A stretch of 34,989 nt of DNA from a virus: positions 1-34,989 of IMG/VR virus record IMGVR_UViG_3300013233_000504. One strand, given 5' to 3'. The notes under the pieces were generated by a model that was not told the DNA's origin, searched no databases, and was given only the letters and a program-made list of their open reading frames with translations. The position numbers and the translations under genes are program-made. This document shows positions 1,544 to 20,429 of this stretch, piece after piece. How positions within the stretch are numbered: position 1 is the first letter of the stretch; each line of letters begins with the position of its first letter.

Positions 1544-1553
1544 TGGATAAACC

Positions 1554-4400: not shown

Positions 4401-4788
4401 TGTGATCTACGTTGCCAAGCGCGACTTAATGACCGGCCACACACTGGGAACGGTTTACGGCAAAAATTTCTTTGTCGATCAAAACGACCGACTGCCAAAA
4501 CGCAAAGCCACCGAACACAAAGCCATCGACGGCACTGTTGAGACGGTTTTTGCTCACCGCTCGATTGAGTGGCGCATCAAATCCCCACCCACCCCCATCG
4601 ACCAGCTCGATCAGTGGCGCGAGTTTGCCGCCTCTGTGGCCGATGGCACCCCCTTTATTTATGACCCCTATGGCGACTCAGCAATCCCCGTACAGCAGAC
4701 CAATGTGGTGATTGTTGGGGACGTAAAAGAGAGCCGTCACAGTGATTTTGGCTACGCCATTATTTCATTTACCGTTTTGGAGCAGTAA
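4393..4788 (+). CDS. Distal tail / minor tail protein (lambda M-like position)
   Basis: A 131-residue protein starting at ATG 4393 inside the end of the tape measure gene. A longer upstream in-frame start at 4339 would only add a stretch antiparallel to the tape measure reading and looks spurious. Features include MPSVIYVAKRDLMTGHTLG, a PIDQLDQWREFAASVADG helix and TPFIYDPYGD. The pattern of a helix followed by 'F.YDPYG' is seen in distal tail proteins that cap the tube and hold the tip. Its place between the tape measure and the very large tip protein supports the role. The TAA overlaps the next start as TAATG. Confidence 0.6.
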   Translation: MPSVIYVAKRDLMTGHTLGTVYGKNFFVDQNDRLPKRKATEHKAIDGTVETVFAHRSIEWRIKSPPTPIDQLDQWREFAASVADGTPFIYDPYGDSAIPVQQTNVVIVGDVKESRHSDFGYAIISFTVLEQ

Positions 4789-7700: not shown

Positions 7701-9506
7701 GATGGCCCAAAGGGCAACAGCGGATGGTCGGCAACGGTCAGTTATCGCCCGCCGGTTTTGCCGCCACAAGTGAATTGGTCGAATCAGATTAGTGGGGTTA
7801 GTAAGCCTGCTGATGGGGCTACGGTGGGGGCTGTGTGGGGTGTTGATGTGTCTGGTGTTGATACCGGCGCTGTTTCTTCGTCTGGCTCAAAAAGTTACGA
7901 TTTTCCGAACATTAAATCGCTGGGACACTGGCTACCAACCCCCGGAAATATTGTGTCACCAACGTGGGGAACCGGTGCCGACACAAACATCACCGGAGGT
8001 GGCTATCTAGCGGCCTCTGGAGGGCGATGCTGGCTCGTACACGCTGAAAAAATACCCGTATCAAACGATCTAATAGAGCTGGAGGTTGGAGTCAAATTTA
8101 TTGGCGGGGGTCAGATGTCCTGCGGCTGGTTTGGTTATGACTCAGACGGCAACTATGTTAATTCGTATGGATTAAATGATTATGGGTCGATGTATTACCA
8201 TGCTGCGGATTTCGTGTCGGGCAGTGGCTGGGCTGTGTTCCGAGGCTACACAAAAGGCCGTGGAACAACAACCGGAACAACCGGCTCCGGAACATTGTCA
8301 AGCCCCGGCCAGCTTCACCCCAGCGTTGCTTTTATATCTCCGGTGATAGTTCTAAATTACATCAATGATCCGGGTGTAACAGTGTTGAATTTTGTTCGGC
8401 ACAGAGTGATTCAAACAGCAGCGGAAACGCCGTACTCTGACGGTCAAACGATTGACGCATTACAACCCGCAGAAGCCAATGCCGGAGATAATCAAAACGT
8501 AGATTGGACAGCCCCCGCATTAGCTGCAAAAGAACCCGCGCAAGCCGGAGCAGATGTGACCGGAACAAATGTGGCGCTTGGTGCTGATACTGGATCTGTT
8601 GGCGCAAGCGCAAAACGCATATTCGTTAATCCGGCATCCGGCGAGCTTGAGGTTTGGTCTGGGGCGCAGCTTATTGAGTCAATGGGTATCAGTACAGTCG
8701 GTGTTGACACCATAATCCATAAGATTTTATCGACAACTCAGGGTGTGATAGGTCTCGATGTTTCGACATCTGGACACGCAATCAGAGGAGCATCGTCACT
8801 CGGCGTTGCTGGAGATTTTGTCGGCTCAAATGACTCTGCGATCCGCGCAACATCAAGTACGTCTTTTGAGTCGATGAGGGTTGAAAATACAGGGAATGGA
8901 ACAGGTGTTTTATCAACAACTCAGGGCGCTGGCCACGCTGTTGTTGGGAGTGCTCAGGGCGGCGGCGCGGCTTTTTACGCCCAATCAGGTGCATACCTTC
9001 CCTTTACCGGCGCTCACGAGGTGTTGATAAAAAACGGCACTGTGTTGGCGGCAGGTGATGTTGTTTGTCTTGGTGATAAATTCGCATTCAGTGGGTTGTC
9101 GGACTTTATATCTGTTGGGCGCATAGCGCGTGGGCATCGTGATTTTGCTTACGGCGTTATCACCGGCATTGCGGATATTTCAACGATCCCCGAAGAGCAA
9201 GTGGCGGCCCTCAAAGGCGCGACCGATCAACAGATATTCGACCTGATTGGCAATTACCGTGTGGCGACCGTCAACGCCGTGGGCGAAGGCCTGATCCCTG
9301 TTTGCGATGAAACAGGCCAACTTAAACAGGGAGATCTGTTGATGACCTCAAAATCCCATCCCAAGCGACTCTGTAAACAAGTTACGCGAAGAGGGCGCGC
9401 CGATCACTCAATCCGCAACTACACCGTGGCACAGGTCGAGGATGTAACAGTGCAATTTGACTCTAATGGGTTCGCCCTCGCTGCCGTGACCTACAAACGA
9501 GGCTAA
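4788..9506 (+). CDS. Central tail tip / receptor-binding host-specificity protein
   Basis: A 1572-residue protein, the largest in the genome. Residues 1-550 look like a tail hub: phage tip proteins commonly have the sequence type seen here around SLPLKPSMNVLEIGDPVRLV. Residues about 620-830 hold a Gly-rich module with a run of seven Gly near residue 708 and several GGAGG/GGSS repeats. Around 880-990 there is a fibronectin type III-like domain (APTGLAVSTSS ... LDAYQIHFRRSG ... YDFRIRSLSLDG). The last 180 residues contain NGTVLAAGDVVCLGDKF, GRIARGHRDFAYGVITG and GLIPVCDETGQLKQGDLLMT. That order resembles the C-terminal chaperone/self-cleaving (peptidase G2-like) modules of tail fibres, which is a resemblance only. 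It should assemble at the tip and contact the receptor. Confidence 0.8.
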   Translation: MRTDTGAFFDANNAVSKSPRWTVVISFDDAHTDQMAITSHADGVGPTGVPIFTGRLVDLSLSSQKLNPDKAMASIGVGPFSVLEKSGDVSALIKTKLLAGMGLRKKRVQIYKGFENFSWVQYQLRMTTLIDKEISHHNGVTKFSTADIQRFVDETIFPTRQSFLLESLTEDQSYIKLATGDLTLFPVVAHDSSYSDRPNASVAYVKIGKDAGCEVIACGAQVIDPTHGMILPVLERGALNTGPTPGVGYAHTVDINKPVDRRPAVKEWVYLEGAAPKLARDMLTGGGYLPSHWHLGIAAEFVRDSDFTGIGADWWDTATNKGKTLSFQGLNKVRGKQFIEEQLMLWLGAFMPVYADGALGIKRLSRLLSNSSYVATLDKSNIKVGYQALRHNQDDVINEIDFLWNWNNRKDDFTKFDRVDDFASKALHKKARSRTLKFRGVHTGLHTMNDLVGMFNGLRDRYSNPPKKISLPLKPSMNVLEIGDPVRLVADQILDYTSSAANPISIDSVFEVQQIKEKMDGSITVDLFGSSGNVEPLKYSNDTVVMDDVFYDQGTDLTTVLTVVNGEITADGHLAGAADANNAIYHYNLGDLRLNPGVTITFDKNIRVLVKGFFTVDGVFDGSGGGLVGTAGATKRTDIALWVYSVDYTSGTSGLGKTQAQGSLGVNVVGGQEYTLYSAPVFGGLNEIPFFSVTNNGATLDGLPSTLMGSGGGGGGIVTTTGNTTTPSVTLAVGGAGGQGGSSVQGISRGLSVGASGRFITNGLAGSPGALYAAGNSYGGAGASGHPGGIWWGLDGNHPLPDIFGAASCNLAANGAIGTLVTEPLINARIYSAAEKPTSSGYVGFPAIGDVSDADKRDVCVRVQYLPPSITATLEQPALTHQLSAPTGLAVSTSSEPATIGANTALERVLVVWDGVTDQRLDAYQIHFRRSGVSAAWTSAGIIQAEAGSERLLLDGEQGVLYDFRIRSLSLDGPKGNSGWSATVSYRPPVLPPQVNWSNQISGVSKPADGATVGAVWGVDVSGVDTGAVSSSGSKSYDFPNIKSLGHWLPTPGNIVSPTWGTGADTNITGGGYLAASGGRCWLVHAEKIPVSNDLIELEVGVKFIGGGQMSCGWFGYDSDGNYVNSYGLNDYGSMYYHAADFVSGSGWAVFRGYTKGRGTTTGTTGSGTLSSPGQLHPSVAFISPVIVLNYINDPGVTVLNFVRHRVIQTAAETPYSDGQTIDALQPAEANAGDNQNVDWTAPALAAKEPAQAGADVTGTNVALGADTGSVGASAKRIFVNPASGELEVWSGAQLIESMGISTVGVDTIIHKILSTTQGVIGLDVSTSGHAIRGASSLGVAGDFVGSNDSAIRATSSTSFESMRVENTGNGTGVLSTTQGAGHAVVGSAQGGGAAFYAQSGAYLPFTGAHEVLIKNGTVLAAGDVVCLGDKFAFSGLSDFISVGRIARGHRDFAYGVITGIADISTIPEEQVAALKGATDQQIFDLIGNYRVATVNAVGEGLIPVCDETGQLKQGDLLMTSKSHPKRLCKQVTRRGRADHSIRNYTVAQVEDVTVQFDSNGFALAAVTYKRG

Positions 9507-9509
9507 CCG

Positions 9510-11399
9510 ATGCCCGCTGCCGGATACGCCAAAACCGCCACCTTAACGATCCCCGCAGGATCGGTGGCCAGCGACCAGATTAACTTCAAGCTGCCGGTCT
9601 TGATCACCGCCGATGCCGTTTTGGCGGCCACGGCGAGAGCGGATGGATTTGATATTCTGCCCACGCTGCTCGATGGCACGGTGCTCGATTTTGAGCGCCA
9701 ACGGTACAACCCCGCCACGGGCGAACTACTGCTGTTCGTCAATCTGCCCGCCTTCCTCTCGGCCACCGACACCGTTATTGAGATCAATATCGGCAACGCC
9801 GCCGCGCCCGATCAACAAAACTCCGCCCTGACTTACGCCGACAGCACGATTGTCATGCACGGTGATGGTGTAACGCTGCACGACTCCAGCCCAGCGGCTA
9901 CGGACGGCGTGATGAGTGCCGGAGCGATTGCGGCACCGGCCACACCATCACCGCTCGGAACGGGTGTGAATCTCGATGGCTCTCAAGGCATCGGATTTGA
10001 TGGCGCACGATTTATCCCCACTCTCTACACCGCCTCTTTTTGGTATATGGACGTTACCGCAGCAGGCACCTTTATCAACATGACCGGCCCCACGCTGGGC
10101 AATGAAGATATTCTGAGATTTGAGGATAAAGGCGGTTGGTCAGGTAAGACCGATTGGGGCGCATCGTTTGCGGGTATCGCCAACACGTTGGCGGGGGCGC
10201 ATCGCATCGCCATTTCATACAATGACGCGACCGGCGACCTAACGCTCTATCAAGACGGCGTGCAAGAGATTGTGGCCAACGGTGCGCCGATTCCTGCGGG
10301 TACCCAAGCGGCGTTTGCTTATTTTGGGATGCGTGCTGGGGATTCCAAGTGGACGGCGATGGACATTGCCGAGATCCGCGTTACCGATTACGAAACCAGT
10401 ATTGATCTTGAAGCGGCTTATTTTGCGGCTGAATCCAACCCAAGCGCATTCTATTCACTCTCGGCGTGGGTCGATAACAGCACTGCTGTCTCTCACTCGC
10501 TCAGTGACGGCGTGCAAACGGGGTCGCTCTCAACGGTCGCCGCCAGCGTTGGAACCGCTCATGCGCTTTCTGGCGCGGGTTTGTTGGGTGCGCTTTCTCT
10601 GACAACGGCGCTGGCTGGATCAACGCATGTCCTGAGTGGCGCAGCGCAAGCGGGTGTCTTGGCGATCAACAGCGCCACGGTGACCACAAGCAGCGCGTTA
10701 TCGTCGGCCAACAGCAGGGGATTGTTGGCCGCCAACAGCGGCACCATTGGCAGCCAACACCGGCTCAGTTCGGGCAGCGCCACCGGATCACTGGCATTAA
10801 CAGCCTCGTCGATTGGCACACAGCACGTCTTATTAGCGGCCACCACCCAAGGCTCGGCGACATTAACAGCCGCTGTTGTTGGCACCCAACAGAGCCTGAG
10901 CAGTGCGCTTAATATCGGGGCATTAAGCCGCCTCGATGGCCAGCAAACCCCAAGCCACGCTCTCAGTGCAGTTGCTGCACGCGGGTCTCTCGCTCAATTA
11001 AGCGCCACGCTATCCACCTCGATGAGATTGTCTGACGGGGTTCAGCGCGGCGGGGTCTCTTTGACGGCTGCCACTATTGGCAGCCAACACCGGCTCAGCA
11101 GCGCGATTACTCAAGGGGCATTAAGCCTGCTTGACGGCGTTCAACTGCCAACCCATGCGCTAACCGATGCGGACAGCATCGGCGCGGTGAGCCTGATAAT
11201 CACCCCCATCAGCAGTCAACACAGGCTGAGTTCCGCTCTGTCTGTTGGTATTATCAGCATCACTCACGGATCAATGAACCCCGCGCCAGAGGGCGCTGGG
11301 ATTGCTCAACATCAACCGACTCGATACGGCCTAAAGCATCAAGTCGATCACTTAACCGTTACTCACCAACAAACCCATTACGAGGCTCAACATGGCTGA
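9510..11399 (+). CDS. Tail fibre-like protein: DUF2341 + LamG-like lectin + 22-residue repeats
   Basis: A 629-residue protein in three parts. Residues 10-110 match the DUF2341 pattern (INFKLPVLI, DGFDILPTLLDGTVLDFE, VNLPAFLSATDTVIEINIGN). Residues 115-320 look like a concanavalin A/LamG-type carbohydrate-binding sandwich (YASFWYMDV-like strand, GAHRIAISYNDATGDLTLYQ, MDIAEIRVTDYE). Residues 329-588 are eleven complete and one partial tandem repeat of exactly 22 residues. The last 40 residues are His/Gln-rich (QHQPTRYGLKHQVDHL). This is a credible surface-binding fibre in which the lectin recognises host polysaccharide and the repeats form a stalk. Three bases separate it from the tip gene, with GAGG upstream. 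The exact attachment to the virion is unknown. Confidence 0.75.
   Translation: MPAAGYAKTATLTIPAGSVASDQINFKLPVLITADAVLAATARADGFDILPTLLDGTVLDFERQRYNPATGELLLFVNLPAFLSATDTVIEINIGNAAAPDQQNSALTYADSTIVMHGDGVTLHDSSPAATDGVMSAGAIAAPATPSPLGTGVNLDGSQGIGFDGARFIPTLYTASFWYMDVTAAGTFINMTGPTLGNEDILRFEDKGGWSGKTDWGASFAGIANTLAGAHRIAISYNDATGDLTLYQDGVQEIVANGAPIPAGTQAAFAYFGMRAGDSKWTAMDIAEIRVTDYETSIDLEAAYFAAESNPSAFYSLSAWVDNSTAVSHSLSDGVQTGSLSTVAASVGTAHALSGAGLLGALSLTTALAGSTHVLSGAAQAGVLAINSATVTTSSALSSANSRGLLAANSGTIGSQHRLSSGSATGSLALTASSIGTQHVLLAATTQGSATLTAAVVGTQQSLSSALNIGALSRLDGQQTPSHALSAVAARGSLAQLSATLSTSMRLSDGVQRGGVSLTAATIGSQHRLSSAITQGALSLLDGVQLPTHALTDADSIGAVSLIITPISSQHRLSSALSVGIISITHGSMNPAPEGAGIAQHQPTRYGLKHQVDHLTVTHQQTHYEAQHG
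10494..11273 (+). repeat. Tandem 66-bp (22-residue) coding repeats, 11 full + 1 partial
   Basis: In frame with the fibre gene, each unit has the form HxLSxxxxxGxLSL followed by xxAxxGSQ, where small residues and hydrophobics alternate. Units begin at 10494 and then every 66 bases to 11154, and the twelfth starts at 11220 and stops after 18 residues. The DNA has diverged between units while length is kept exactly, so selection acts on the protein period. One pair of units (beginning at 10758 and 11088) shares the identical stretch GGCAGCCAACACCGGCTCAG at its edge. The regular short period suggests a beta-solenoid or triple-stranded fibre stalk. Confidence 0.9.
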
Positions 11400-12159
11400 T
11401 CAAAGCGTTTTCAAACAAGGGCTGGAATCAGCCAAAACCAACGGCACACAACTTTTTCTTTGTGAAGGCATCCCTGCGGATTATACCGCTGCCAGTGCCG
11501 CCAGTGGGGGCAACAACGTCAGTGGCGCAGGCCGGACGATGGTGGCGGGTGACCTGACTTACGTTGTCAACGCGACGAACAACGGTTTTGATGTCGTCAT
11601 CGCGGCAGCCAACAACATCGCCACGGTGGCCATCACCACCACGGGCGGGGCGTTGAAGTGGGCGTGGTGTGATCCAACCAACTCTGTTTTGATTCAGGTG
11701 TTTGATGCGGGTAGCAGTGAAATTCTGACTGCGGGTAACCCGATCCATCTGCCCACACCGTTGCAGTTGGGATTGGGGGCAGCCGGTGGCCATGAGAATG
11801 TGCATAAAAGTGGCTTGGATTATCTGATTGCCAACGGCTCGATCTGCTACGTCTGCCACACTCAACCGACGACCTACACCGAGGCTGCCACCACGTTCAA
11901 CCTCTCTGGGGCGGGTCGTTCTCTGGCTCCAACGGACTACGCCTACGCAGCCAACGGGGCGGGATGGGATGTGGTCATCCCTGCGGCCACCGCTGCGGCC
12001 ACGGCTACGGCAGACAACGCCGCACCGGATCTTTGGTATGCCATCGTTAATCCAGCGTTGAGTGAGTTGCTGTGGGTGTTTAATGAGACCAGTGATCAGG
12101 CCATTGTCAACGGTCGGGATCTGGACTACGGCGCATTGACTGCCGGTTATGCGGGGTAA
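11392..12159 (+). CDS. Accessory tail/fibre-associated protein with tandem duplicated domain
   Basis: A 255-residue protein whose two halves are homologous. SGAGR occurs at residues 44 and 172, followed in each by D-x3-Y, then a GFDVVI/GWDVVI strand. Later there are matching segments AWCDPTNSVLIQVFDAGSSE and AIVNPALSELLWVFNETSDQ. The offset is about 128 residues. The first part of each unit also carries Cys (24; 152 and 155). I do not recognise the family. Position after the fibre and the beta-rich pattern suggest a structural protein on the tail tip or a fibre chaperone. It overlaps the fibre gene by eight bases with GAGG upstream. Confidence 0.7.
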   Translation: MADQSVFKQGLESAKTNGTQLFLCEGIPADYTAASAASGGNNVSGAGRTMVAGDLTYVVNATNNGFDVVIAAANNIATVAITTTGGALKWAWCDPTNSVLIQVFDAGSSEILTAGNPIHLPTPLQLGLGAAGGHENVHKSGLDYLIANGSICYVCHTQPTTYTEAATTFNLSGAGRSLAPTDYAYAANGAGWDVVIPAATAAATATADNAAPDLWYAIVNPALSELLWVFNETSDQAIVNGRDLDYGALTAGYAG

Positions 12160-12162
12160 GTT

Positions 12163-12498
12163 ATGGATACGGTACGGTTTTTCCCGACTCGGGATAACAT
12201 CAGCGACACAGTGACCCTTTCGGACAGCGGCAACACCTTCACTGATCTTTCGTGGGTGACGCGCTGCAAGATCATTCTCGATGGTACTGGCACCACGCCT
12301 GAGATCGACAGCAGCGCGACTCCAGCGGTGTTCGATTGGACAACCAACAGCGCCCAGAAGCAGATGGTTCTAAAGATCGGCTTGAGTGCGTTGCCGATGG
12401 GCAGTTGGGATGCGCGCCTGGTGATCTACGGCAGCAACACGCCGAACGGTCGGCCATTTGGCGAGGTGTTTAAGTTGGTGGGTGAGTCGGAGGTCTGA
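12163..12498 (+). CDS. Small beta-rich tail-associated protein, unknown
   Basis: A 111-residue protein starting three bases after the previous stop with GGGGTAAG as ribosome site. The sequence (MDTVRFFPTRDNISDTVTLS ... VLKIGLSALPMGSWDARLVIYGSNTPNGRPFGEVFKLV) alternates hydrophobic and polar residues as an immunoglobulin-like sandwich would. It looks like the small sandwich domains found at phage tips and baseplates. No known function is recognised. It is the last gene of the tail operon, and an AT-rich spacer and a strong promoter follow it. Confidence 0.65.
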   Translation: MDTVRFFPTRDNISDTVTLSDSGNTFTDLSWVTRCKIILDGTGTTPEIDSSATPAVFDWTTNSAQKQMVLKIGLSALPMGSWDARLVIYGSNTPNGRPFGEVFKLVGESEV

Positions 12499-12532
12499 TT
12501 GAATTTATTTATTTATTTTATTTTGTTTTGTG

Positions 12533-12561
12533 TTGACAATTCATTGATCCATTGCTATAGT
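12533..12561 (+). promoter_or_regulatory. Consensus sigma70 promoter of the helicase/methylase cassette
   Basis: TTGACA at 12533-12538, a 17-base spacer, and TATAGT at 12556-12561. The -35 is perfect and the -10 differs from TATAAT at one place. Transcription would start near 12568, leaving a leader of about 60 bases before ATG 12627. It is the best match to a sigma70 promoter seen in the window, so the genes behind it may be expressed without phage regulators, possibly in the lysogen. The 30 bases upstream are T-rich and act like an UP-type or spacer region. Confidence 0.85.
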
Positions 12562-12626
12562 TCAACACATGGAAGGCGCAGTTGCTAACCACCGATTCAG
12601 CGGGACTGAGACTAGAGGGTAAGAAC

Positions 12627-13058
12627 ATGAAATCAATCAACGATATGAAATGGATTATGACATCAGCGTGGGGGTTTGTTAAAACCGACGGGATGTCGCT
12701 AAGCTCCGCTCTGAAGCAGGCATGGAAAGAATACAAGGCTCTGATTTCACAGCCCGCTTTTGTTGAAGTTGTTTTTAGTGCAGCAGATCAGATGGCTTTG
12801 TCTGAAAAAAACGGATGGGCTGACGATGAAGACGATGGTGTGACCAGCAGCAAAGCAAATTTTGTTTGCAGTCAATGCAGCTCGTGCAGGGATTGGACAA
12901 CGCACTGTATTATGGGGATGGATGCAGGGTTTCTTGAGTCTGACGGAACCTGTTTTGATTATGAGAAAGGGTCTTTCGGTGACAACTTCTCGGCAATTGT
13001 CGGCACTGCTTGCGGAATTGTCGAAATGAGCGACAACGAAATGGACTTGTATCTCTAA
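12627..13058 (+). CDS. Cys-rich small protein, unknown
   Basis: A 143-residue protein. I chose ATG 12627, which has GAGGG-TAAG upstream, over the in-frame ATG 12582. The N-terminal half is helical (MKSINDMKWIMTSAW ... LKQAWKEYKALIS). The second half has Cys at 81, 84, 87, 94 and 109 in the pattern C-x2-C-x2-C-x6-C, which may bind zinc or a cluster, followed by an acidic C-terminus. No family is recognised. It is the first gene behind the sigma70 promoter and its TAA overlaps the next ATG (TAATG), so it belongs to the helicase/methylase operon. Base use is more A-rich than the tail genes. Confidence 0.7.
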   Translation: MKSINDMKWIMTSAWGFVKTDGMSLSSALKQAWKEYKALISQPAFVEVVFSAADQMALSEKNGWADDEDDGVTSSKANFVCSQCSSCRDWTTHCIMGMDAGFLESDGTCFDYEKGSFGDNFSAIVGTACGIVEMSDNEMDLYL

Positions 13059-13468
13059 TGAAAAAAATATCACAAGAAAAACTGAAAGAGTTTCGAAAAA
13101 TAGCCAAATTTTTTGGCGGAAAGTCTCTAACTGGAACTGCAAGGCAAAAGTCTTGGGCGGAAGAAGTCAGGAGCGACTTTCTTAAGTCTGATTGTGTCTC
13201 TGATGAATCCAAGACTGAATTCATCGGCCTTGGCGGTAAAGTTAATGGTTCTAAATTCTGGATTGAAAACCGCTTATTATCGCCAACCCTCTTTGTTGCT
13301 GAACTCTATCAGTCAGAGATCGACGGTCTTGAAGAGATTGAGTGTCAGCACTGGGATTTTCTTGTCGCAACGAATCCAACGGGCGAAAAGAACCGCCGTC
13401 GCGACATGATCCGTGATTATATTGAGTCCTGCACATTCAAATTCAGCAGCGAGCTTGCGGAAGAATGA
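13058..13468 (+). CDS. Small basic protein, unknown
   Basis: A 136-residue protein starting at ATG 13058 in a TAATG overlap. An upstream in-frame start at 13010 lies inside the previous gene and is less likely. The start is Lys/Phe-rich (MKKISQEKLKEFRKIAKFF). A later segment reads LTGTARQKSWAEEVRSDFL, a pattern met in small proteins that sit beside phage or mobile-element helicases. I would not assign a function. It ends in an ATGA overlap with the helicase gene, so it is probably a partner of the helicase or translated with it. Confidence 0.65.
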   Translation: MKKISQEKLKEFRKIAKFFGGKSLTGTARQKSWAEEVRSDFLKSDCVSDESKTEFIGLGGKVNGSKFWIENRLLSPTLFVAELYQSEIDGLEEIECQHWDFLVATNPTGEKNRRRDMIRDYIESCTFKFSSELAEE

Positions 13469-15078
13469 AGTTAAGAGGGTATCAATCAGAGCTTGTCGAG
13501 CTGTCGGCAGGCTCAGATAACGTGCTGATTCAAGCCGACACCGGCTCAGGAAAAACACCTGTTTTGGCAACCATTGCGTCTCAAGGCCACTATGTTATAG
13601 CGGTTGCCCACAGAAATATTCTTGTCAAACAGCTATCAAAAACACTCGCTCGAATGGGCGTTGGCCATACTGTTTTAGCAGCAAAATCAACGGTTCGTGG
13701 CTGCATTGTCGAGCATCGAAGACTTGGTTTGAGTGAGATTTACACTCTTTCGTCCCAACATGTACAAGTCGCGTCTATCGACACGCTTCTATCACGACAC
13801 AGACGCGGAACGCTTGGTCTTGATGTTGATGTTGATGTTGATGAAGAATGGCTGATATTGGTTGACGAAGCGCACCACATGATTGACGCGAACAAGTGGG
13901 GGTCACTTACCAAGATCTTTAAAAACAGTCGCGTCATTGGCTTCACGGCTACGCCATGCAGGCTTGATGGAGAGAGCCTTTCGTCAAAAAAAGGCGGGGT
14001 GTTTGATCGCTTGATTCAGGCATCAGAGCTTAAAAAAGACAGCGTTAAAAAACTGATAGAAAAAGGCTATCTGTCTGACTTCAAGGCCTATTCAGTGCCA
14101 GAGATAATCGACGACGGCGCACTTAAGCTAGGGAGCCACGACTACACATACAAAAGCCTCTCTACTGAAACGGGAAAAGTGGTCTTTGAGATGGCCGGTG
14201 ACGCAATCAAGCACTATAAGAGGCTTGCAGATGGAAAGCAGGCTCTGGCCTTTTGCGTTTCGATTGAGATAGCGAAAAAGAGCGCAGAGTCGTTCAGAGA
14301 TGCGGGGATACCCAGCGCAGCAATCCATTCAAAGTTAAGCCAAAATGAATCAAATCGAATTTTTGACTTGTTTGAACGGCGCGTAATAAAGGTGCTTTTT
14401 AATGTCGATATGATCGGAGAGGGGGTTGATGTTCCGGCAATTGAGGCGCTTATAATGATGAGAAAGACCGCCTCTTTTGCGCTCTACCGGCAGTGGATAG
14501 GGCGATCATTGAGGCCAGAACAGAGCAAACCCCATGCAATTTTGATTGATCATGTTGGCAATATACGGACTCACGGACTCCCTGATGAGCACGTTGAGTG
14601 GAATCTTGAAAACCCTCCCAAACAAGTTAAATCAAACTTAAATCCATGCCCAAAGTGTTCTTTTCTGGTCAAGGCGTGGACGGACTACTGCCCAGAGTGC
14701 GGTGAGGATCTTCGCAAATCAAACGCATACAGCGCATCTGATGTGAAATACATCAACTACGCCTTGGTCGAGATAGAGCGCCGGAAAATAGCCGAGGGTG
14801 TTAAAAAGTCCGCTCGTGAAAAAGAGCTTAGAGATAACCTGCAAATTTTATCAGAAAGAACCAGTGGCTTTGGCGCTCTAAAAAAGAGCGTTCACAAAGT
14901 AAAGCGATGGGTAGCTGATGTTTTGCAATCTGATGGAGTATCCGTCTACGATCTAAACCGTTTTTTCACAGCTGAGAGCGACACTGGCTTCTGGATTCAG
15001 AATTTCACTTTCGCAGACATTAATAACAACAAAGAAAAGCCAAAAAAGGTGTATCAAAAATGGCTAAGATCAAAATAA
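13465..15078 (+). CDS. Superfamily 2 DEAH-type helicase with C-terminal zinc ribbon
   Basis: A 537-residue ATP-driven nucleic-acid motor. A Q-like start (LRGYQSELVE) is followed by Walker A ADTGSGKT at 24-31, motif II DEAH at 134-137, motif III TAT at 161-163, motif V (NVDMIGEGVDVP near 312-323) and motif VI QWIGRSLRP at 343-351. A zinc ribbon C395-x2-C398-x10-C409-x2-C412 follows, then a basic helical tail. All motor motifs are intact. Similar stand-alone helicases occur in phage replication modules and in restriction or defence systems, and sequence alone does not decide which. A short Asp/Val run (gatgtt x3, from 13822) precedes motif II. It overlaps the preceding gene by four bases and the methylase gene by 19. 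Confidence 0.88.
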   Translation: MKLRGYQSELVELSAGSDNVLIQADTGSGKTPVLATIASQGHYVIAVAHRNILVKQLSKTLARMGVGHTVLAAKSTVRGCIVEHRRLGLSEIYTLSSQHVQVASIDTLLSRHRRGTLGLDVDVDVDEEWLILVDEAHHMIDANKWGSLTKIFKNSRVIGFTATPCRLDGESLSSKKGGVFDRLIQASELKKDSVKKLIEKGYLSDFKAYSVPEIIDDGALKLGSHDYTYKSLSTETGKVVFEMAGDAIKHYKRLADGKQALAFCVSIEIAKKSAESFRDAGIPSAAIHSKLSQNESNRIFDLFERRVIKVLFNVDMIGEGVDVPAIEALIMMRKTASFALYRQWIGRSLRPEQSKPHAILIDHVGNIRTHGLPDEHVEWNLENPPKQVKSNLNPCPKCSFLVKAWTDYCPECGEDLRKSNAYSASDVKYINYALVEIERRKIAEGVKKSAREKELRDNLQILSERTSGFGALKKSVHKVKRWVADVLQSDGVSVYDLNRFFTAESDTGFWIQNFTFADINNNKEKPKKVYQKWLRSK

Positions 15079-15659
15079 ACAACGGCAGTGCGCTGGATTT
15101 CCCTGTTGATTGCAACCTTATCTTCACTGATCCTCCGTTTGAAATGGACGGTGAAGAATTGGCCAAGGTGTTTAACCGCATTGAATGCGACCACTTGTTT
15201 TTGCTCTCAACAATGAAGCAGTTTATTGAGCTGCTTCATTCATCAAACTGGACTCTAAACTTCGATCTTGTTTTAGATACAGTGACACCAAAGAAAAGCA
15301 AAAGCATTCATCAGCCAAATTACACGCACGTCAACGGCTTTTATTTAACGCGCAATGGAGCCAAGTCGATCTTCAGTCGTAAGTTAAGACAGCGATCTGA
15401 CACGTTCGACAACAACGGCTACTGGCCATCCATCGTGCGTGCGCCAAGGGAGCGCCTGGGTGATCATGGGATGGCAAAAAACGAACAGGCGGTGGTTGAT
15501 ATTATCGGCAGCTTCAAAGCGGATCATGTTTACGACTGCTTTGCTGGCAGCGGAACAACGGGTTTTGCGTGTGTTGAATTAAACAAGCAATGCACTCTTA
15601 CAGAGATCGACAATAATCTCTATTCAAAAATGGTTAAAAACTTTGGGTTTTTCTTATGA
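15060..15659 (+). CDS. Small DNA methyltransferase (beta-type motif order)
   Basis: A 199-residue protein with the catalytic motif IV DPPF at residues 24-27 and the SAM-binding motif FAGSGTT at 161-167. The catalytic motif precedes the SAM motif, the order of beta-class N6-adenine/N4-cytosine methylases. Family members are usually 250-400 residues. Here only about 130 residues separate the two motifs, so the target-recognition part must be very small. No restriction endonuclease is seen nearby, so it is an orphan methylase that could protect phage DNA or mark it. It overlaps the helicase end by 19 bases and its stop overlaps the next start (ATGA), so it is co-translated with both. Confidence 0.85.
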   Translation: MAKIKINNGSALDFPVDCNLIFTDPPFEMDGEELAKVFNRIECDHLFLLSTMKQFIELLHSSNWTLNFDLVLDTVTPKKSKSIHQPNYTHVNGFYLTRNGAKSIFSRKLRQRSDTFDNNGYWPSIVRAPRERLGDHGMAKNEQAVVDIIGSFKADHVYDCFAGSGTTGFACVELNKQCTLTEIDNNLYSKMVKNFGFFL

Positions 15660-16198
15660 AAAATAGCATAGTCACAATCGAGAATGACGGGCAAATCGTT
15701 CAGAGAACAAATTATTACGAGACAGAGCAAGCCAAGCGGGGCGAATTCTATCTCACTTGGAACGCCGGTTGTGGTCGCCTTCTTATCCCCGATTCTCATC
15801 GTCACTTTATCTCAGACATGAAGTGCAACCACTGTCTAGTAACTAATAAAGATATTGGGATAGAGATCCTGTTTGACGACGGAACCGACCACCCTTTTCG
15901 GCTTATGATCTCGCATGAGCAGAATGATAGAAAAATTGAGGCAGGAGAATGCTTGTTGTCTGTTTATGTGCGCATGGGAGAGAAGTATCAGTATCCATGT
16001 AAGTGCGTCATAGAACACGGCAACACAGGCAACCAAAACGCCAAAAAAGAACAGGTGAAATCCTCACAAATCCAAATGAGGATTGATAGCCGAGAAAAGG
16101 CCGCTTACGTCAAACAAGCGCAGCGTGATGGTAAAAAGCTCACAAACTGGCTTTTTGATCTTGCCAACGCCGCATTGGATGACGATTTAAAGAAATGA
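15656..16198 (+). CDS. Unknown phage protein with ribbon-helix-helix-like C-terminus
   Basis: A 180-residue protein. The N-terminal 125 residues look like a beta-rich domain (FYLTWNAGCGRLLIPDSHRH is the most distinctive stretch), with Cys pairs at CNHC and CKC. The C-terminal 45 residues (SSQIQMRIDSREKAAYVKQA, then GKKLTNWLFDLANAAL) have one strand with alternating residues followed by two helices, the layout of Arc/CopG/HicB-like ribbon-helix-helix DNA binders. A fused DNA-binding domain suggests an autoregulator of this cassette or a partner of the methylase. Function is not known. It is the last gene of the promoter 12533 operon. Confidence 0.65.
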   Translation: MKNSIVTIENDGQIVQRTNYYETEQAKRGEFYLTWNAGCGRLLIPDSHRHFISDMKCNHCLVTNKDIGIEILFDDGTDHPFRLMISHEQNDRKIEAGECLLSVYVRMGEKYQYPCKCVIEHGNTGNQNAKKEQVKSSQIQMRIDSREKAAYVKQAQRDGKKLTNWLFDLANAALDDDLKK

Positions 16199-16212
16199 AT
16201 GACCTTAAATTA

Positions 16213-16232
16213 ACCCCATTCGGACGACAATC
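16213..16232 (+). promoter_or_regulatory. Shared 20-bp element, copy A (before putative lysis genes)
   Basis: The copy reads ACCCCATTCGGACGACAATC. It shares 15 of 20 positions with the copies at 23121 and 31755, including an invariant TCGGACGAC. A -10-like TATTAT lies at 16251-16256, about 28 bases from the centre of the element, and no good -35 is present. That spacing and lack of a -35 is what is known for activator-dependent Mor/C promoters of phage Mu. It lies in a 100-base gap and faces the two membrane-protein genes. Confidence 0.7.
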
Positions 16233-16301
16233 AGACCCAAAGTAAGGCAGTATTATTGTTTGATGATATTGCTCTGTTTGGGGCGGGATTGGGGGTATTT
16301 A

Positions 16302-16628
16302 ATGCTGAGTGAATACATGGCCGCAAAAGCCATTCAGGGCGCGGCAGGGGCAATGGGCGCGGCATCCGCGATGGTCTTTCTGTCAACAACGGGGACGCTT
16401 GATTTGATCAGTCGCCTTTTCCTTGGGTTTTATTTGGCCTTAATCGCTACCCCACACACCATGACGATGCTGGGCATGGAGCCGGATACCGACAACATCC
16501 TCTTGATTGGGGGCAGCATCGGCTTTGTTTCGTGGTTCGTTTTGGGTTTGGCTGCCGATTACCTCAACAAGCTGAAAGAACGAGGCGGATTAATGGCGCT
16601 TATCAAGGATTGGAGAGGCGATAAATGA
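16302..16628 (+). CDS. Small membrane protein, possible holin
   Basis: A 108-residue protein. ATG 16302 (GGGGG eight bases upstream) is preferred to the in-frame ATG 16260. Three hydrophobic segments at about 10-28, 35-52 and 66-88 are followed by a charged C-terminus (DYLNKLKERGG ... KDWRGDK). Size, three segments and charged tail match class I holins, which make lesions in the inner membrane at lysis. There is no endolysin next to it, so the call rests on topology. It is preceded by copy A of the shared element, which suggests late expression, and overlaps the next gene as ATGA. Confidence 0.55.
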   Translation: MLSEYMAAKAIQGAAGAMGAASAMVFLSTTGTLDLISRLFLGFYLALIATPHTMTMLGMEPDTDNILLIGGSIGFVSWFVLGLAADYLNKLKERGGLMALIKDWRGDK

Positions 16629-16924
16629 ACGATATTATGCTGGTTTTGTTGCCCCTGATTGTTTTAGGCATTTTTGTTTTAATGTCACAGCACCACAAAA
16701 AGCTGCCCATGACCCAACGTCTGGGGTGGGGGTTGATCTCTCTTGGCCTGCTGGGTGAGTTCGTTTTGCGGATTGATCCGGGATCCGGCCTGCTCTGGAT
16801 GTGTGTGTTGAAAGATTTCGGGGTGATGGTGTTGGTTTCGAGAGTGCTGTTTTTGATGGCCATTGGCCGAACGTGCTACAAGGGCGGCATGAAGCCAACC
16901 CCTTTATCCAATATGAAGAATTAA
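16625..16924 (+). CDS. Small membrane protein, holin/antiholin partner candidate
   Basis: A 99-residue protein with hydrophobic segments at about 4-20, 34-50 and 66-86, starting MNDIMLVLLPLIVLGIFVLM. A His/Lys-rich loop (SQHHKKLPMTQR) separates the first two. It is translated from an ATGA overlap with the previous membrane protein, so the two are made together, as holin/antiholin pairs often are. No other known family is recognised. A strong terminator lies 6 bases after the stop. Confidence 0.5.
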   Translation: MNDIMLVLLPLIVLGIFVLMSQHHKKLPMTQRLGWGLISLGLLGEFVLRIDPGSGLLWMCVLKDFGVMVLVSRVLFLMAIGRTCYKGGMKPTPLSNMKN

Positions 16925-16929
16925 TGGTT

Positions 16930-16973
16930 GGCGGTGGTTCGTTCCAAATTGGAACCAACCATCACGCCTTTTT
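16930..16973 (+). terminator. Rho-independent terminator between membrane genes and repressor
   Basis: The stem TGGTTCGTTCC (16935-16945) pairs with GGAACCAACCA (16951-16961) at ten of eleven positions around an AAATT loop. An outer GGCG/CGCC pair extends it and TTTTT follows at 16969-16973. It stops rightward transcription from the membrane genes. The hairpin overlaps the last codon and stop of the leftward repressor gene, so convergent messages meet here. Confidence 0.85.
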
Positions 16974-17345
16974 ATCCAACTGCATCTCTCGAACGGCCTT
17001 CTCCAGTACGTTTATTCGTTTCTTTTCCTCAGCAACAGCCGAAATCTCTCTCTGTTGATCGGGGGTCAACTCTTCAAATAGAGCGACCATCTTAATCAGC
17101 TTGGGATCAACTCCACCCGATGATTCCTCGCTTTTATAAACTGGATTCTCTCCACTAAGCAGCCACTCCAACCGTAACCCGTGTCGCTTCGCAACGGTTT
17201 CACATACCTCGTATGGGATTTTATCCCTAATCTTCCAAGTGCTAAGCGTTGTCCTACTGTTGCCAATACATTCAGATAGTTGAGTGTTATTTTGCACGTT
17301 AAAAACCACCCTAAGCCTTTTTAAAATCTCTTCTGTCCGACTCAT
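16962..17345 (-). CDS. CI-like repressor (helix-turn-helix, short form)
   Basis: A 127-residue protein on the minus strand. Residues 5-60 (RVVFNVQNNTQLSECIGNSR ... YEVCETVAKRHGLRLEWLLS) match the CI-type helix-turn-helix of phage repressors, including the 'LEWLLxG' end. No S24 self-cleaving peptidase domain follows. Instead there is a short hydrophilic helix (LFEELTPDQQREISAVAEEK) that could dimerise. Without the peptidase, induction would need an antirepressor, and the Rha-like protein at 27420 is one candidate by family. The Shine-Dalgarno GAGGAG lies nine bases before the start. It is divergent from the early genes, the usual lysis/lysogeny switch. Confidence 0.85.
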   Translation of the reverse strand: MSRTEEILKRLRVVFNVQNNTQLSECIGNSRTTLSTWKIRDKIPYEVCETVAKRHGLRLEWLLSGENPVYKSEESSGGVDPKLIKMVALFEELTPDQQREISAVAEEKKRINVLEKAVREMQLDKKA

Positions 17346-17462
17346 ATCGTGAACTCCTCTTGCAATGTATTCGAATCGGAACTATTATTGTTCACAGTCC
17401 GCAACACATTTTAACCAATCGTTTTAAGTGTTTGTTTTCATTGTACAAGAAAGGAGAAAACC
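17346..17462. promoter_or_regulatory. Divergent switch region between repressor and early genes
   Basis: A 117-base intergenic region, clearly AT-richer than its surroundings, that must hold the promoters of both the leftward repressor and the rightward early operon. Inverted copies of GTGAAC/GTTCAC (17349 and 17390), an ATTCGAAT dyad at 17369-17376, and an imperfect CGGAACT/AGTCCG pair (17377-17401) are candidate operators. I could not fix either promoter with confidence. AAGGAG sits before the early ATG 17463. Confidence 0.7.
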
Positions 17463-17666
17463 ATGCCTTTGGCAACAGGTGAAGAACTATATAGAGAAGT
17501 AAAAGCCGGTTTCGTTCAACAAGGAACAACCTTTCACCAATGGTGCCGGTCAGTTAAAAAAAACCCAACCGGTGTGAAAGCCGCTGTTTTCGGCACATGG
17601 AGCGGCATCAAAGGTAAGCAGGTTTTATCCGATGTCGCCACCGCTGCCGGAGTTCTGAAATCGTGA
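17463..17666 (+). CDS. Small early regulator, Cro-position
   Basis: A 67-residue protein with a strong ribosome site (AAGGAG). It begins MPLATGEELYREVKAGFVQQ and includes FHQWCRSVKKNPTGVKAAVFGTW, a helix-turn-helix-like plan found in small phage regulators that bind DNA. It is the first gene rightward from the switch region, in the Cro position. Family identity is not certain, and the role as a second regulator that opposes the repressor is inferred from position. Confidence 0.65.
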   Translation: MPLATGEELYREVKAGFVQQGTTFHQWCRSVKKNPTGVKAAVFGTWSGIKGKQVLSDVATAAGVLKS

Positions 17667-17806
17667 TCCCGATTTACGAACAGATCGAAAGCATCTTTTT
17701 TCCTATCGGCTTTATTCAATCCGCCATCACATCCGCCTATTTCGCTGGCTCCGTGCTGATTACATTGGCACTCGCCGGTTTCCTCTGCTGGAGATTCAAT
17801 AAATGA
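17663..17806 (+). CDS. Tiny membrane protein (47 residues, GTG start)
   Basis: It is read from GTG 17663, which overlaps the previous TGA (GTGA), to TGA 17804. The protein starts VIPIYEQIESIFFPIGF and has one hydrophobic stretch (SAYFAGSVLITLALAGFLCW) followed by RFNK, a single-pass segment with a positive end. Its stop overlaps the ATG of the next gene (ATGA). These couplings on both sides are the main support. Function is unknown. It may be a small membrane early protein such as a superinfection factor, which is speculation. Confidence 0.6.
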   Translation: MIPIYEQIESIFFPIGFIQSAITSAYFAGSVLITLALAGFLCWRFNK

Positions 17807-18006
17807 CAACCAACGTGCTGGTCGCCATGCGCCACAAACAATGCACCAACATCCAAACCCTACTGGAACAGGGCGGCTTGATCCAATCCTCCACCGTCCG
17901 CGTCCACATGCCTGATGGCTCCATCGCCATCGTCGATCCTCTGGGTGAGATCACCCACGACCTCACCTCAGCCCAACTGCGCAACCGTCCGCTAGAGACC
18001 GCGTAA
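17803..18006 (+). CDS. Small early protein, unknown
   Basis: A 67-residue protein starting in an ATGA overlap. A helical first part (MRHKQCTNIQTLLEQGGLIQ) is followed by a strand/hairpin (STVRVHMPDGSIAIVDPLG) and a short tail. No known family is recognised. It precedes the serine recombinase by 11 bases including its ribosome site AAGGAG, and may be an accessory or directionality factor for it. Confidence 0.6.
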   Translation: MTTNVLVAMRHKQCTNIQTLLEQGGLIQSSTVRVHMPDGSIAIVDPLGEITHDLTSAQLRNRPLETA

Positions 18007-18017
18007 GGAGAACCACC

Positions 18018-18740
18018 ATGAAACTGATCGGATATATCAGAGTGAGCACCAAAGAACAGGCCACCGATGGCCACAGCCTGCAAACCCAGCGAGAACAGAT
18101 CCAACGCTACTGTGAAGCGTTCGATCACGAGTTGGTCGGCATCATCGAAGACGCTGGCGTATCAGCCAGCAAACCGTTTGAGAAACGTGCCGGTGGCCAG
18201 AAGGTCATGGACGTTATCACCCAAGGCAACGCCGAAGGTCTGGTGGTTGCGCGCATCGACCGTGCATGGCGCGTGGCACTGGATGGCCTGCTGACCTTCG
18301 CATGGTTCAGCAAACAAGGTGTGTCGTTTCATTCGTGGAATGAGCGCGTCGATACCGGTACCCCAGAAGGCAAGTTCCAGTTGATCACCATGCTGGGCAT
18401 GGCCGAGATGGAACTGGATCGAATCCGCCAACGCACCAAAGATGCCATGCAAGGCTTGAAAGATCGGGGGGCGGTTTACGGCACCATCCCTTTTGGCACT
18501 AAAGCGGTGGACGGGATGCTCTACCGCGACCCGAAAACATGGAAGGTTCGCCAAACCATCATCCGCGCCCGTAACCGCAAGAAGCCGATCCCCTATCGTA
18601 AGCTGGCTGCGCAACTCTCCAACCGTGTGGCGGCTCCCAGTGGTGGCAAAACGTGGCACGTCTCAACCCTGCAAGGGATCATCAAAAACCACACCGATGT
18701 GGCCAAGCTGCCGTTGATGGGAGAGCGTCATGTCCACTAA
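18018..18740 (+). CDS. Serine recombinase (resolvase/invertase family)
   Basis: A 240-residue protein. The N-terminus GYIRVSTKEQATDGHSLQTQ carries the nucleophilic Ser10 in the resolvase motif, followed by a YCEAF segment, VVARIDRAWR (conserved Arg residues) and a MAEMELDRIRQRTKDAM long helix. A Lys/Arg-rich region with an HTH-like part (PYRKLAAQLSNRVAAPSG) follows. It lacks the large C-terminal domains of phage integrases of the phiC31 type and resembles resolvases or small IS607-like enzymes in size. It could resolve dimers, invert a segment or integrate. It overlaps the downstream tyrosine recombinase by 11 bases, so the two are produced together. Confidence 0.88.
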   Translation: MKLIGYIRVSTKEQATDGHSLQTQREQIQRYCEAFDHELVGIIEDAGVSASKPFEKRAGGQKVMDVITQGNAEGLVVARIDRAWRVALDGLLTFAWFSKQGVSFHSWNERVDTGTPEGKFQLITMLGMAEMELDRIRQRTKDAMQGLKDRGAVYGTIPFGTKAVDGMLYRDPKTWKVRQTIIRARNRKKPIPYRKLAAQLSNRVAAPSGGKTWHVSTLQGIIKNHTDVAKLPLMGERHVH

Positions 18741-19674
18741 ATTCATGCCAAGAAACGTGCGACCCGCTGGCGATCTGATCAACCTCTGCAACCGCTTTCT
18801 CGATCACATCAAGAACGTGCTTTCCGTCAACACCGTCAAGGCCTATCAGATTGATCTGGAACAGTTGGTGGGCTTCTGCCGTGGGGGTGGCATAGAGAGC
18901 ATCCAACAGATCAACGCCATCATCATAGACAACTGGCTCGATGCGATGATGAAAGGCGAGGGCGTTAAACCCCGAACCGCTGCCCGAAAACTGGAAGCCG
19001 CCAAGAGTTTGCTGCGTTGGGCGTTCCAGCGCGAACTGATCAACAGCAATCCTGGCGACCGCTGCCACATCTCTTATGACGAAGCGCCCGTGATTGCCCC
19101 GCCGTCTGAGGTGATGAATCGGGTCATCGACACCATCAGCACCGAATCAACCTTAGGTAAGCGCGACAGAGCCATGCTGCTGCTGATGAAGGATGGCGCG
19201 ATGCGAATCAGTGCGGTGGCATCACTCGACCTCTACAACCCCGACCAACCACCGATCCACAGCATCCACCCGAATGGCTTGATCTACTACCCATGCAAAG
19301 GCCGCACTGAAAACACCATCGTCCAACGTGGCACGTTGCAGGCGGTGCAAGCGTGGCTTGATGTCCGTCATGAACTGGTGAAGCGCAACAGCCCCACGGC
19401 GTTGTTTCTCAGCACCCGAGGTTCACGCATGGGGCGTGGAGCGATCCATTCCAGAGTCAAACACGCTGGCAAAGAGGCCGGTGTTCCAAGCCTGCACGCG
19501 CATCTGCTGCGCCATCGCCGCATCGGGGATCTGATCGAGAAGACGGGGGATTTCCGTTTGGGGCAGGCGTTAGCAGGCCACAAGAGGGCAACAACGACGA
19601 TCAGTGTCTACGGCCACAGTGAGCGGATTAAGTTGCTGAAACGGATTCAGGGTGAGGGTGATGAGAACAAATAA
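18730..19674 (+). CDS. Tyrosine recombinase 1 (phage integrase family)
   Basis: A 314-residue protein. The N-terminal SAM-like core-binding domain (residues 10-105, e.g. FLDHIKNVLSVNTVKAYQID) is followed by a catalytic domain with R159 (AMRISAVASL), H258 and R261 (HLLRH), H284 (GHKR) and nucleophile Y294 (SVYGH). The full Arg-His-Arg-His-Tyr set is in place and the length is typical. It follows the serine recombinase directly with an overlap. Either it or the second tyrosine recombinase at 21789 could integrate the prophage, or one may resolve multimers of the circular genome. Confidence 0.9.
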   Translation: MSTKFMPRNVRPAGDLINLCNRFLDHIKNVLSVNTVKAYQIDLEQLVGFCRGGGIESIQQINAIIIDNWLDAMMKGEGVKPRTAARKLEAAKSLLRWAFQRELINSNPGDRCHISYDEAPVIAPPSEVMNRVIDTISTESTLGKRDRAMLLLMKDGAMRISAVASLDLYNPDQPPIHSIHPNGLIYYPCKGRTENTIVQRGTLQAVQAWLDVRHELVKRNSPTALFLSTRGSRMGRGAIHSRVKHAGKEAGVPSLHAHLLRHRRIGDLIEKTGDFRLGQALAGHKRATTTISVYGHSERIKLLKRIQGEGDENK

Positions 19675-19894
19675 CGAGGATCAAGACCGACTGCCCGATG
19701 GCAGTTGGGACTTTGCCAAAATTGATCAACAGATGAGCCGGTACAGCTACCAGCTCAAACAGAAACTCAAGAGAGAGGGGCTATGCCAAAAAGCAAACCA
19801 AGACTCTGCAAACGCTGTGGAACGGCGCTCAAGTACCGCAAGAGAAGCTGTGATGTCTGTGGAGCCACTTACGCTACAAAACGCTTTGTTATGA
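19661..19894 (+). CDS. Small hypothetical protein overlapping the next gene
   Basis: A 77-residue reading frame from ATG 19661, or from GTG 19652 with three more residues. The first 43 residues (MRTNNEDQDRLPDGSWDFAK ... LKREGL) look like a normal protein. The rest overlaps the zinc-ribbon gene at 19783 for 112 bases in another frame and looks less natural. The true gene may have the real stop as shown or be expressed with a shift into 19783. Such a shift would be -1, which I regard as possible but unsupported. Low-complexity or function clues are absent. Confidence 0.45.
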   Translation: MRTNNEDQDRLPDGSWDFAKIDQQMSRYSYQLKQKLKREGLCQKANQDSANAVERRSSTAREAVMSVEPLTLQNALL

Positions 19895-20079
19895 CCCCAC
19901 GGCATATTTCAGCGGTCAAGATGCAGTCCAATCGCAAGGGCTTGATCTTCCGCAATGACGACAGCTTGTACCGCGACAAGTTGGCGATGATGGGGGTGGC
20001 ATCCTGCAAAGAGCTTAACCAGAGACAGTTTAGACAGTTTATGTCTGATCTGGATCACCTGCCAAACGTAGCACGATAG
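19783..20079 (+). CDS. Zinc-ribbon protein, unknown
   Basis: A 98-residue protein with GAGAGAGGGG just before ATG 19783. The N-terminal part has two Cys pairs in the C-x2-C ... C-x2-C form (LCKRCGTALKYRKRSCDVCG), a treble-clef or ribbon that should bind zinc and nucleic acid. The remainder is basic and helical (LYRDKLAMMGVASCKELNQR). This type is common in phage early regions and may be a small replication or transcription accessory. A terminator follows immediately after the stop. Confidence 0.7.
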   Translation: MPKSKPRLCKRCGTALKYRKRSCDVCGATYATKRFVMTPRHISAVKMQSNRKGLIFRNDDSLYRDKLAMMGVASCKELNQRQFRQFMSDLDHLPNVAR

Positions 20080-20080
20080 G

Positions 20081-20100
20081 CGGCCTGCTCAGGCCGTTTT
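20081..20100 (+). terminator. Rho-independent terminator after the recombinase operon
   Basis: CGGCCT-GCTC-AGGCCG (20081-20096) is a perfect six-base stem with a tetraloop, followed by TTTT. It begins one base after the TAG of the zinc-ribbon gene. It should close the early transcription unit that starts at 17463. Confidence 0.85.
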
Positions 20101-20135
20101 ACTCAGCAAATCAAATATGTATAGAGGTTTTTATT

Positions 20136-20429
20136 ATGACGTTACCAACTGCGCTGTGTGGGTTAAATCGCCACATTCTTGGTTTAAACGAATCCAGACA
20201 ATTGAACGATAAGGGTAGGTTGATAAGTTTTTATTCAATTGGCTTTTGGATGATGGGTGCTTTTTTTTCGATGTTAGTGAGTTTTAGAGGGTTAGTTCGA
20301 TTGTTGGGAAATAATGTATATTATGTTAAATATAACGTAACCCCTTTAAATACAGCGTCAAACCCACCCAATCAAACAATAAGAGCTGTTATCAGCAACA
20401 AGCCACACGCATCTGGAGAACGCTCATGA
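20136..20429 (+). CDS. Possible small membrane protein (weak ORF)
   Basis: A 97-residue frame. In favour: an AGAGG ribosome site before ATG 20136, an ATGA overlap with the replication gene at 20426, and a hydrophobic segment (ISFYSIGFWMMGAFFSMLVS). Against: its second half crosses a very AT-rich stretch with dyad repeats that looks regulatory, and the C-terminus is of low quality. If it is not real, the interval 20101-20425 is a leader/regulatory region for the replication gene. I lean slightly to real for the first half only. Confidence 0.35.
   Translation: MTLPTALCGLNRHILGLNESRQLNDKGRLISFYSIGFWMMGAFFSMLVSFRGLVRLLGNNVYYVKYNVTPLNTASNPPNQTIRAVISNKPHASGERS
20311..20336. promoter_or_regulatory. 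AT-rich dyad pair ahead of the replication gene
   Basis: ATAATGTATATTAT (20311-20324, five-base arms) is directly followed by GTTAAATATAAC (20325-20336, four-base arms). The surrounding 60 bases are far AT-richer than the flanking genes. It lies about 90 bases before the replication gene. It may be an operator/promoter or part of an origin unwinding element. No matching repeated iterons were seen, so the exact role is open. Confidence 0.45.

Follow-up and report, generated by a model that had tools for sequence, protein, structure and literature searches.

Anti-CRISPR (Acr; CRISPR, clustered regularly interspaced short palindromic repeats) genes usually encode small inhibitors without enzymatic partners. 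Prophages of Pseudomonas aeruginosa carry the acrIF23-acrIF24 operon (PMC7648647, PMC9638941), which we found in LESphi3 and IME307. This short operon of overlapping genes has the AcrIF23 gene close to its start, and its second gene encodes AcrIF24, which is both an Acr and an Acr-associated (Aca) protein. Its promoter, TTGCAT-N17-TATAGT, carries between the hexamers an inverted repeat that is bound by AcrIF24 (PMC9638941). The published target of AcrIF23 is the type I-F Cas2/3 protein, and residues E25/T26 are required for its inhibition by AcrIF23 (PMC13381967). Here we describe a cassette of five genes at positions 12533 to 16198 of the IMG/VR virus record IMGVR_UViG_3300013233_000504, the whole 34,989 nucleotides of which are called the window. 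The genes encode, in order, g1, g2, a superfamily 2 (SF2) helicase, a DNA methylase and g5. Because g2 carries an AcrIF23 domain, we prefer an anti-defence role to that of a replication aid or a defence island, and we consider it reasonably probable that the five genes form a mobile operon of the acr-aca type that serves anti-defence and in which the helicase-methylase pair stands unexplained. Such an operon would probably shield the incoming phage from host immune systems. This reading draws on homology and shared gene order, on the mobility of the unit, on the anatomy of its promoter and operator, and on co-occurrence with type I-F systems and self-targeting in one host. The first-pass annotation had proposed a replication aid, a DNA-modification unit or a defence island; the self-promoted cassette that it described is confirmed, but the best reading shifts to anti-defence.

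Like acrIF23-acrIF24, the cassette is a short operon of overlapping genes with an AcrIF23-domain gene among the first, a strong promoter with a TATAGT -10 hexamer and a 17-base spacer, and a candidate DNA-binding product (g5), and it is carried by a temperate phage. It differs in encoding a helicase and a methylase in place of AcrIF24, in the missing N-terminus of g2 and in a promoter without a complete palindrome. As in acr-aca operons in general, a mobile element, here a complete phage genome, carries the cassette together with a strong promoter of its own; the inverted-repeat operator is absent from the window and present in ten relatives or family members.

Nothing useful was returned for g2 by Pfam, PHROGs and NCBIfam, and the relation to AcrIF23 surfaced only in a profile search of the PDB. 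The gene first described as encoding a small basic protein starts at a TAATG that overlaps the g1 stop; its anti-CRISPR domain had been missed. The window g2 alone matches AcrIF23 (PDB 7fia) over residues 12-75 (phmmer E=9.3e-11), and a profile of 13 g2 relatives does so with E=4.2e-42. A Foldseek search with an AlphaFold2 model of g2 (predicted local distance difference test score 82) gave 7fia as the sole significant match (E=2.4e-4; next match E=0.59), with a modest template modelling score of 0.48. The g2 of one relative (L005; loci are designated by L or G numbers) matches AcrIF23 along its full length (E=5e-46).

The promoter and operon structure are those described in the first-pass annotation, a near-perfect sigma70 site followed by genes that are overlapping or coupled throughout 12627-16198. 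Within positions 1-18000 of the window it is the sole site with 11 of 12 consensus matches, promoter-like sites overall being no commoner there than in shuffles (10 observed vs 15 shuffled). Promoter-like sites occupy the equivalent position in L002, L004, L005, L013, L024, L117, L119 and L160, and the promoter design of acrIF23-acrIF24 is reproduced in L105 and L106. Immediately upstream of the window promoter lies a putative operator half-site, TTTATTTTGTTTTGT, which in L004 forms a perfect 15-bp inverted repeat surrounding the -35 hexamer and in L012 is found as its reverse complement upstream of the operon. The palindromes of the ten relatives or family members lie at or between the -35 and -10 hexamers. 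Those between the hexamers differ in sequence (L005, CGTGAGCGCTCACG; L117, 14-bp arms; L119, TGCATAACTGTTATGCA; G465, TACGCTCATTGAGCGTA), and L119 has the same two hexamers, TTGCAT-N17-TATAGT, as the acrIF23-acrIF24 promoter; those of L004 (15-bp arms), L014, L015, L017, L019 and L024 touch a hexamer. For most of these promoters the best palindrome arm was reached by 0 to 1% of shuffles; in L005 and L019 the shuffle test took another, longest repeat and so does not bear on the operator itself.

The candidate DNA-binding protein, g5, was described in the first-pass annotation as ending in a ribbon-helix-helix (RHH)-like domain, an assignment for which the window copy gives a weak NikA-like match (E=0.065) and the L004 copy a stronger one that is still below the Pfam cut-off (E=1.5e-5). 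The window g5 is 59% identical to the L002 copy, and its RHH part alone is 38% identical to that of L004. A scan of viral contigs with the single g5 sequence gave no matches, and a match to AcrIF25 (E=0.97) was taken as chance. Other cassettes encode RHH proteins over the Pfam cut-off after the methylase (L014, L015, L016) or helix-turn-helix (HTH)-like proteins, as a tail fused to the methylase (L017), a small gene after the methylase (L118) or a small gene before g2 (G465).

The helicase and methylase are as first described: a complete DEAH helicase with zinc ribbon, and a methylase of beta order, with DPPF (motif IV) ahead of FAGSG (motif I). None of the four zinc-ribbon cysteines varies among 14 relatives, Walker A is present in every aligned sequence that reaches it and the DEAHH positions are conserved; the methylase catalytic motifs are conserved in 16 relatives, and its closest solved relative is DpnA-like. 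The helicase shares the SF2 ResIII core, Helicase_C and zinc ribbon of the repair helicase RadD (YejH), which is its best Foldseek match (E=1.6e-19). It differs in being only about 20% identical, in always lying beside a methylase and in a C-terminal helical region of its own. It belongs to the RadD family but is not RadD itself, because its match to the RadD profile NF053632 (E=2e-23) scores 82.5 bits against an equivalog cut-off of 720 bits. A precedent for an SF2 helicase-like CRISPR inhibitor is the Cas3-helicase-like AcrVIA2 (PMC13131331), which acts on Cas13.

Divergence of the helicase and of the methylase co-varies closely (Mantel r=0.92, 0/5000 permutations), and the two are never separated in this family, their genes overlapping by 4-26 bases in most copies. 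This argues against the very improbable explanation of an anti-defence basket, in which one promoter would serve g2, the helicase-methylase pair and g5 as unconnected accessory genes without a joint mechanism, as does the constant position of g2 ahead of the pair wherever the contig extends far enough. Such a basket would fit with the occurrence of g2 alone or with AcrIF24, with the variety of small genes that separate or follow g2, helicase and methylase, and with the weak correlation of helicase and g2 core divergence (r=0.30, 65/5000 permutations).

Loci were gathered by scans with the methylase and with an AcrIF23-family alignment. The order g2, helicase, methylase was found in 18 distinct loci: the window, L002, L004, L005, L010, L012, L013, L014, L015, L017, L019, L020, L022, L023, L024, L118, L119 and G465. 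Four of them (L012, L023, L118, L119) have one additional gene between g2 and the helicase. In L008, L009 and L016 the contig end cuts the cassette and the helicase-methylase pair is visible; the sole locus without the order, L021, is 25% identical and has a methylase of a different kind. The helicase and methylase are 59-72% identical across unrelated backbones, and in the stretches compared the cassette genes alone are common to the window and the P2-like L002 and L004. Judged from neighboring open reading frames, the copies of L002 and L004 have the replication/ogr side on one flank and the portal gene on the other; that of the Mu-like L014 lies on the other strand between Mor-like and gp16-like genes, that of L019 after a CI-like repressor gene, those of L012, L015 and L118 after tail genes, and those of L017 and G465 on the other strand between lysis and replication genes; L022 is an integrative and conjugative element (ICE). 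Three further copies are in the nin/replication block of lambdoid elements (L005, L013) or in a recombination block (L024). The cassette is rare, being found in 2/369 class genomes and 2/392 family genomes (Brenneria is counted in both). It gave no nucleotide match among INPHARED phages, and tblastn with two methylase queries gave no phage match, so that the isolated phages of that set lack the module. A search for an empty site, a backbone relative without the cassette, by way of the 1572-aa tail protein found no matches. Our literature search found no paper linking AcrIF23 with a helicase-methylase operon. The search for the same gene order in unrelated elements that the first-pass annotation had suggested thus has a positive outcome, and the cassette is apparently a new mobile operon, shared by phages, prophages and one conjugative element that have nothing else in common.

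Some copies look decayed, with the helicase in two frames in L019 (4267-6846) and the methylase in two frames in L020 (2325-3240). A family of 144-148-aa proteins is encoded after the methylase in L005 (8625-9071), L010 (4069-4512) and L024 (8554-8988), the L005 and L010 members matching with E=4e-27 and that of L024 more weakly (9e-5).

A connection with type I-F CRISPR is provided by host genomes. Csy3 is encoded in 3/3 whole host genomes bearing the cassette, against a class background of 34/369 (~9%); the co-occurrence is suggestive, as two of the three genomes come from one family. Survival despite spacers against a resident prophage commonly points to an anti-CRISPR in the same genome. 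Prophage contig C5 of Dichelobacter nodosus G002 carries the cassette (14225-18064), and three of the six distinct spacers in the D. nodosus array match C5 at 32/32 positions, with a 5'-CC protospacer-adjacent motif at two of the three protospacers. Next to the array are intact Csy1-4 genes, and the 1074-aa frame of Cas2/3 is open. This self-targeting is suggestive support for an anti-CRISPR, and another inhibitor or an inactive system could also explain it.

Several observations weigh against an anti-defence role. The self-targeting comes from one genome; none of 24 Brenneria spacers and none of the four recovered G465 spacers match their own element. Of the two arms of the L004 operator the window has only one, and its promoter has no inverted-repeat arm of >=7. 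We know of no role of helicases or methylases of this kind in anti-CRISPR activity. The window g2 begins at the core, without the short N-terminal AcrIF23 segment that bears E25/T26, and for this reason we class it as a core-domain relative of AcrIF23 and not as AcrIF23 itself; the D. nodosus g2 also lacks the segment, and therefore inhibition of Cas2/3 cannot be assumed for either protein. The segment is kept in L022, L023, L118 and L119, has E-S in L005 and G465, and is swapped for other sequence in L002, L012-L017 and L024. With a conserved core and such highly variable N-terminal domains, the aim of g2 probably differs from copy to copy.

The position of L005, L013 and L024 in replication, nin or recombination blocks, next to DnaB, NinB/RusA-type or ERF/YqaJ/SSB-type genes, is also a point against, and would fit with a replication or recombination aid in which the helicase would help phage DNA to restart forks or exchange strands, the methylase would label the origin or newly made strands, and g2 would have begun as a cofactor of the helicase, its use as an anti-CRISPR in Pseudomonas coming later. 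The phrog_16 helicases are common in phages, and in L128 a g2-like gene comes with another helicase. We regard this explanation as unlikely, since these three copies are a minority and the others occupy accessory positions outside replication blocks, often on the strand opposite to their neighbors and with their own promoter. Elements bearing the cassette replicate quite differently (the Mu-like L014, the P2-like L002 with its own primase, an ICE), and AcrIF23-family genes are also found without any helicase. A role in replication only is thus weakened by genomic context, and the situation that the first-pass annotation had considered damaging to its proposal, cassette genes as normal members of a replication block, applies to the three copies and not elsewhere.

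It is formally possible that the cassette is instead a prophage-borne defence against other phages, similar to a nuclease-less restriction-modification or BREX-like unit, in which methylation would be the self mark and the helicase with g2 and its variable N-terminal effectors would block unmarked DNA. The L002/L004 position matches the old/tin cargo site of P2, the g2 N-terminal domains vary widely, and SauUSI and Type ISP enzymes have helicases similar to that of the cassette. The pairing of an SF2 translocase with a beta-type or DNA methylase would recall restriction-modification of Type III and Type ISP; unlike in those systems, there is no nuclease domain, the 199-aa methylase has no long target-recognition region, and g2 has no counterpart. 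Profile scans, including Pfam, NCBIfam and PADLOC, recognized no nuclease domain in the helicase or its neighbors and no toxin domain. PADLOC system models fit only as generic helicase and methylase, and g1, g2 and g5 have no PADLOC matches; membership of a restriction-modification or known defence system was rejected on these grounds. To our knowledge the AcrIF23 domain is known solely as a CRISPR inhibitor, and neither the type I-F co-occurrence nor the self-targeting is predicted by a defensive role, which we think quite unlikely.

We present a hypothetical model for the anti-defence operon. Its own strong promoter would allow transcription once the DNA enters the cell, and the AcrIF23-family g2 would bind and block a host SF2 helicase-nuclease, as extended to the cassette from the published Cas2/3 target. 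The RadD-type helicase and the methylase may act as a pair on phage DNA, the helicase clearing DNA-bound attack complexes or repairing damage and the methylase marking the DNA against restriction. After the first burst, the RHH-ended product, or the HTH protein of other copies, would repress the operon, as is suggested by the operator palindromes and the published AcrIF24 case. It is possible, but to our minds doubtful, that g2, helicase and methylase form one ATP-driven counter-defence machine, with the AcrIF23 core as an SF2-helicase adaptor whose usual partner is the helicase of the same operon, and an N-terminal part whose exchange directs the protein to different host enzymes, Cas2/3 being the target of AcrIF23.

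The window is a complete genome of 34,750 bp, circular or permuted, because an identical direct repeat of 239 bp is present at both ends, though the record may be classed as linear. Its features are collected in Table 1. The cassette lies between tail genes and small hydrophobic proteins; the latter had been called holin genes, a name that no family match over cut-off in Pfam, PHROGs or NCBIfam bears out. GC content is 0.447 in the cassette vs 0.537 in the remainder of the genome, and 12501-16200 is the lowest-GC 3.7-kb window of the genome (window mean 0.527, standard deviation 0.031); A content is 0.30 vs 0.24 in the tail genes, the A-rich base use seen in the first-pass annotation. g1 was not found in other cassettes, and searches of Pfam, PHROGs, NCBIfam, PADLOC and PDB gave it no match. 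Elsewhere in the genome, the clustering of a serine resolvase with two tyrosine recombinases is unusual for one small temperate phage, and a single-stranded DNA-binding protein gene lies amid head genes, far from any replication block.

Table 1. Coordinates of the cassette and other features of the window
Feature	Position	Strand	Description
Terminal direct repeat	1-239 = 34751-34989		239 bp, identical
Tail genes	end 12498		
Putative operator half-site	12517..12531	+	exact 15-mer, immediately 5' of -35
Sigma70-type promoter	12533..12561	+	TTGACA-N17-TATAGT, 11/12 consensus matches, TG extension
g1	12627..13058	+	Cys-rich protein, 143 aa, without relatives
g2	13058..13468	+	136 aa; AcrIF23 core domain at residues 12-75 (13091-13282); sequence and fold matches to PDB 7fia
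Helicase	13465..15078	+	RadD-family SF2 helicase, 537 aa; ResIII and Helicase_C both complete; zinc ribbon 14647-14703
Methylase	15060..15659	+	small beta-order N6/N4 DNA methyltransferase, 199 aa; N6_N4_Mtase E=1.8e-10; DPPF 15129-15140
g5	15656..16198	+	180 aa; N-terminal domain without assigned function, probable C-terminal RHH
Small hydrophobic proteins	16302-16924		
CI-type repressor gene	16962-17345	opposite to cassette	downstream of cassette and hydrophobic genes
Recombinase cluster	18018-22826		serine resolvase; tyrosine recombinases 18730-19674, 21789-22826
Single-stranded DNA-binding protein	31294-31746		

AcrIF23-family genes without a helicase or methylase are encoded in L120, L122, L123, L126, L127, L131 and L107, several of them single and opposing the structural-gene strand; in L126 and L127 an RHH-like gene is immediately 3' of the AcrIF23-family gene. 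A second tie between g2-like domains and helicases is seen in L128 (5848-8710), where the gene directly before another SF2-type helicase gene encodes a protein of 362 aa that includes such a domain. The Polaromonas plasmid pPNAP02 (L108, 3739-5498) encodes a relative of the g5 N-terminal domain, a relative of gene four in the D. nodosus cassette and an adjoining AcrIF23 homologue, without helicase or methylase, and is a candidate anti-defence cluster. The g5 N-terminal domain is 37% identical to the product of the gene two genes upstream of the AcrIF23 homologue of this plasmid.

That an ICE and phages of P2-like, Mu-like and lambdoid kinds all tie an AcrIF23 domain to a helicase and a methylase suggests a composite counter-defence system. 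The operon may serve as a marker for further anti-defence genes, such as g1, the g5 N-terminal domain and the 144-148-aa fourth genes, and the self-targeting in D. nodosus makes the anti-CRISPR claim testable now. It also gives a direct route to the question of the origin of AcrIF23.

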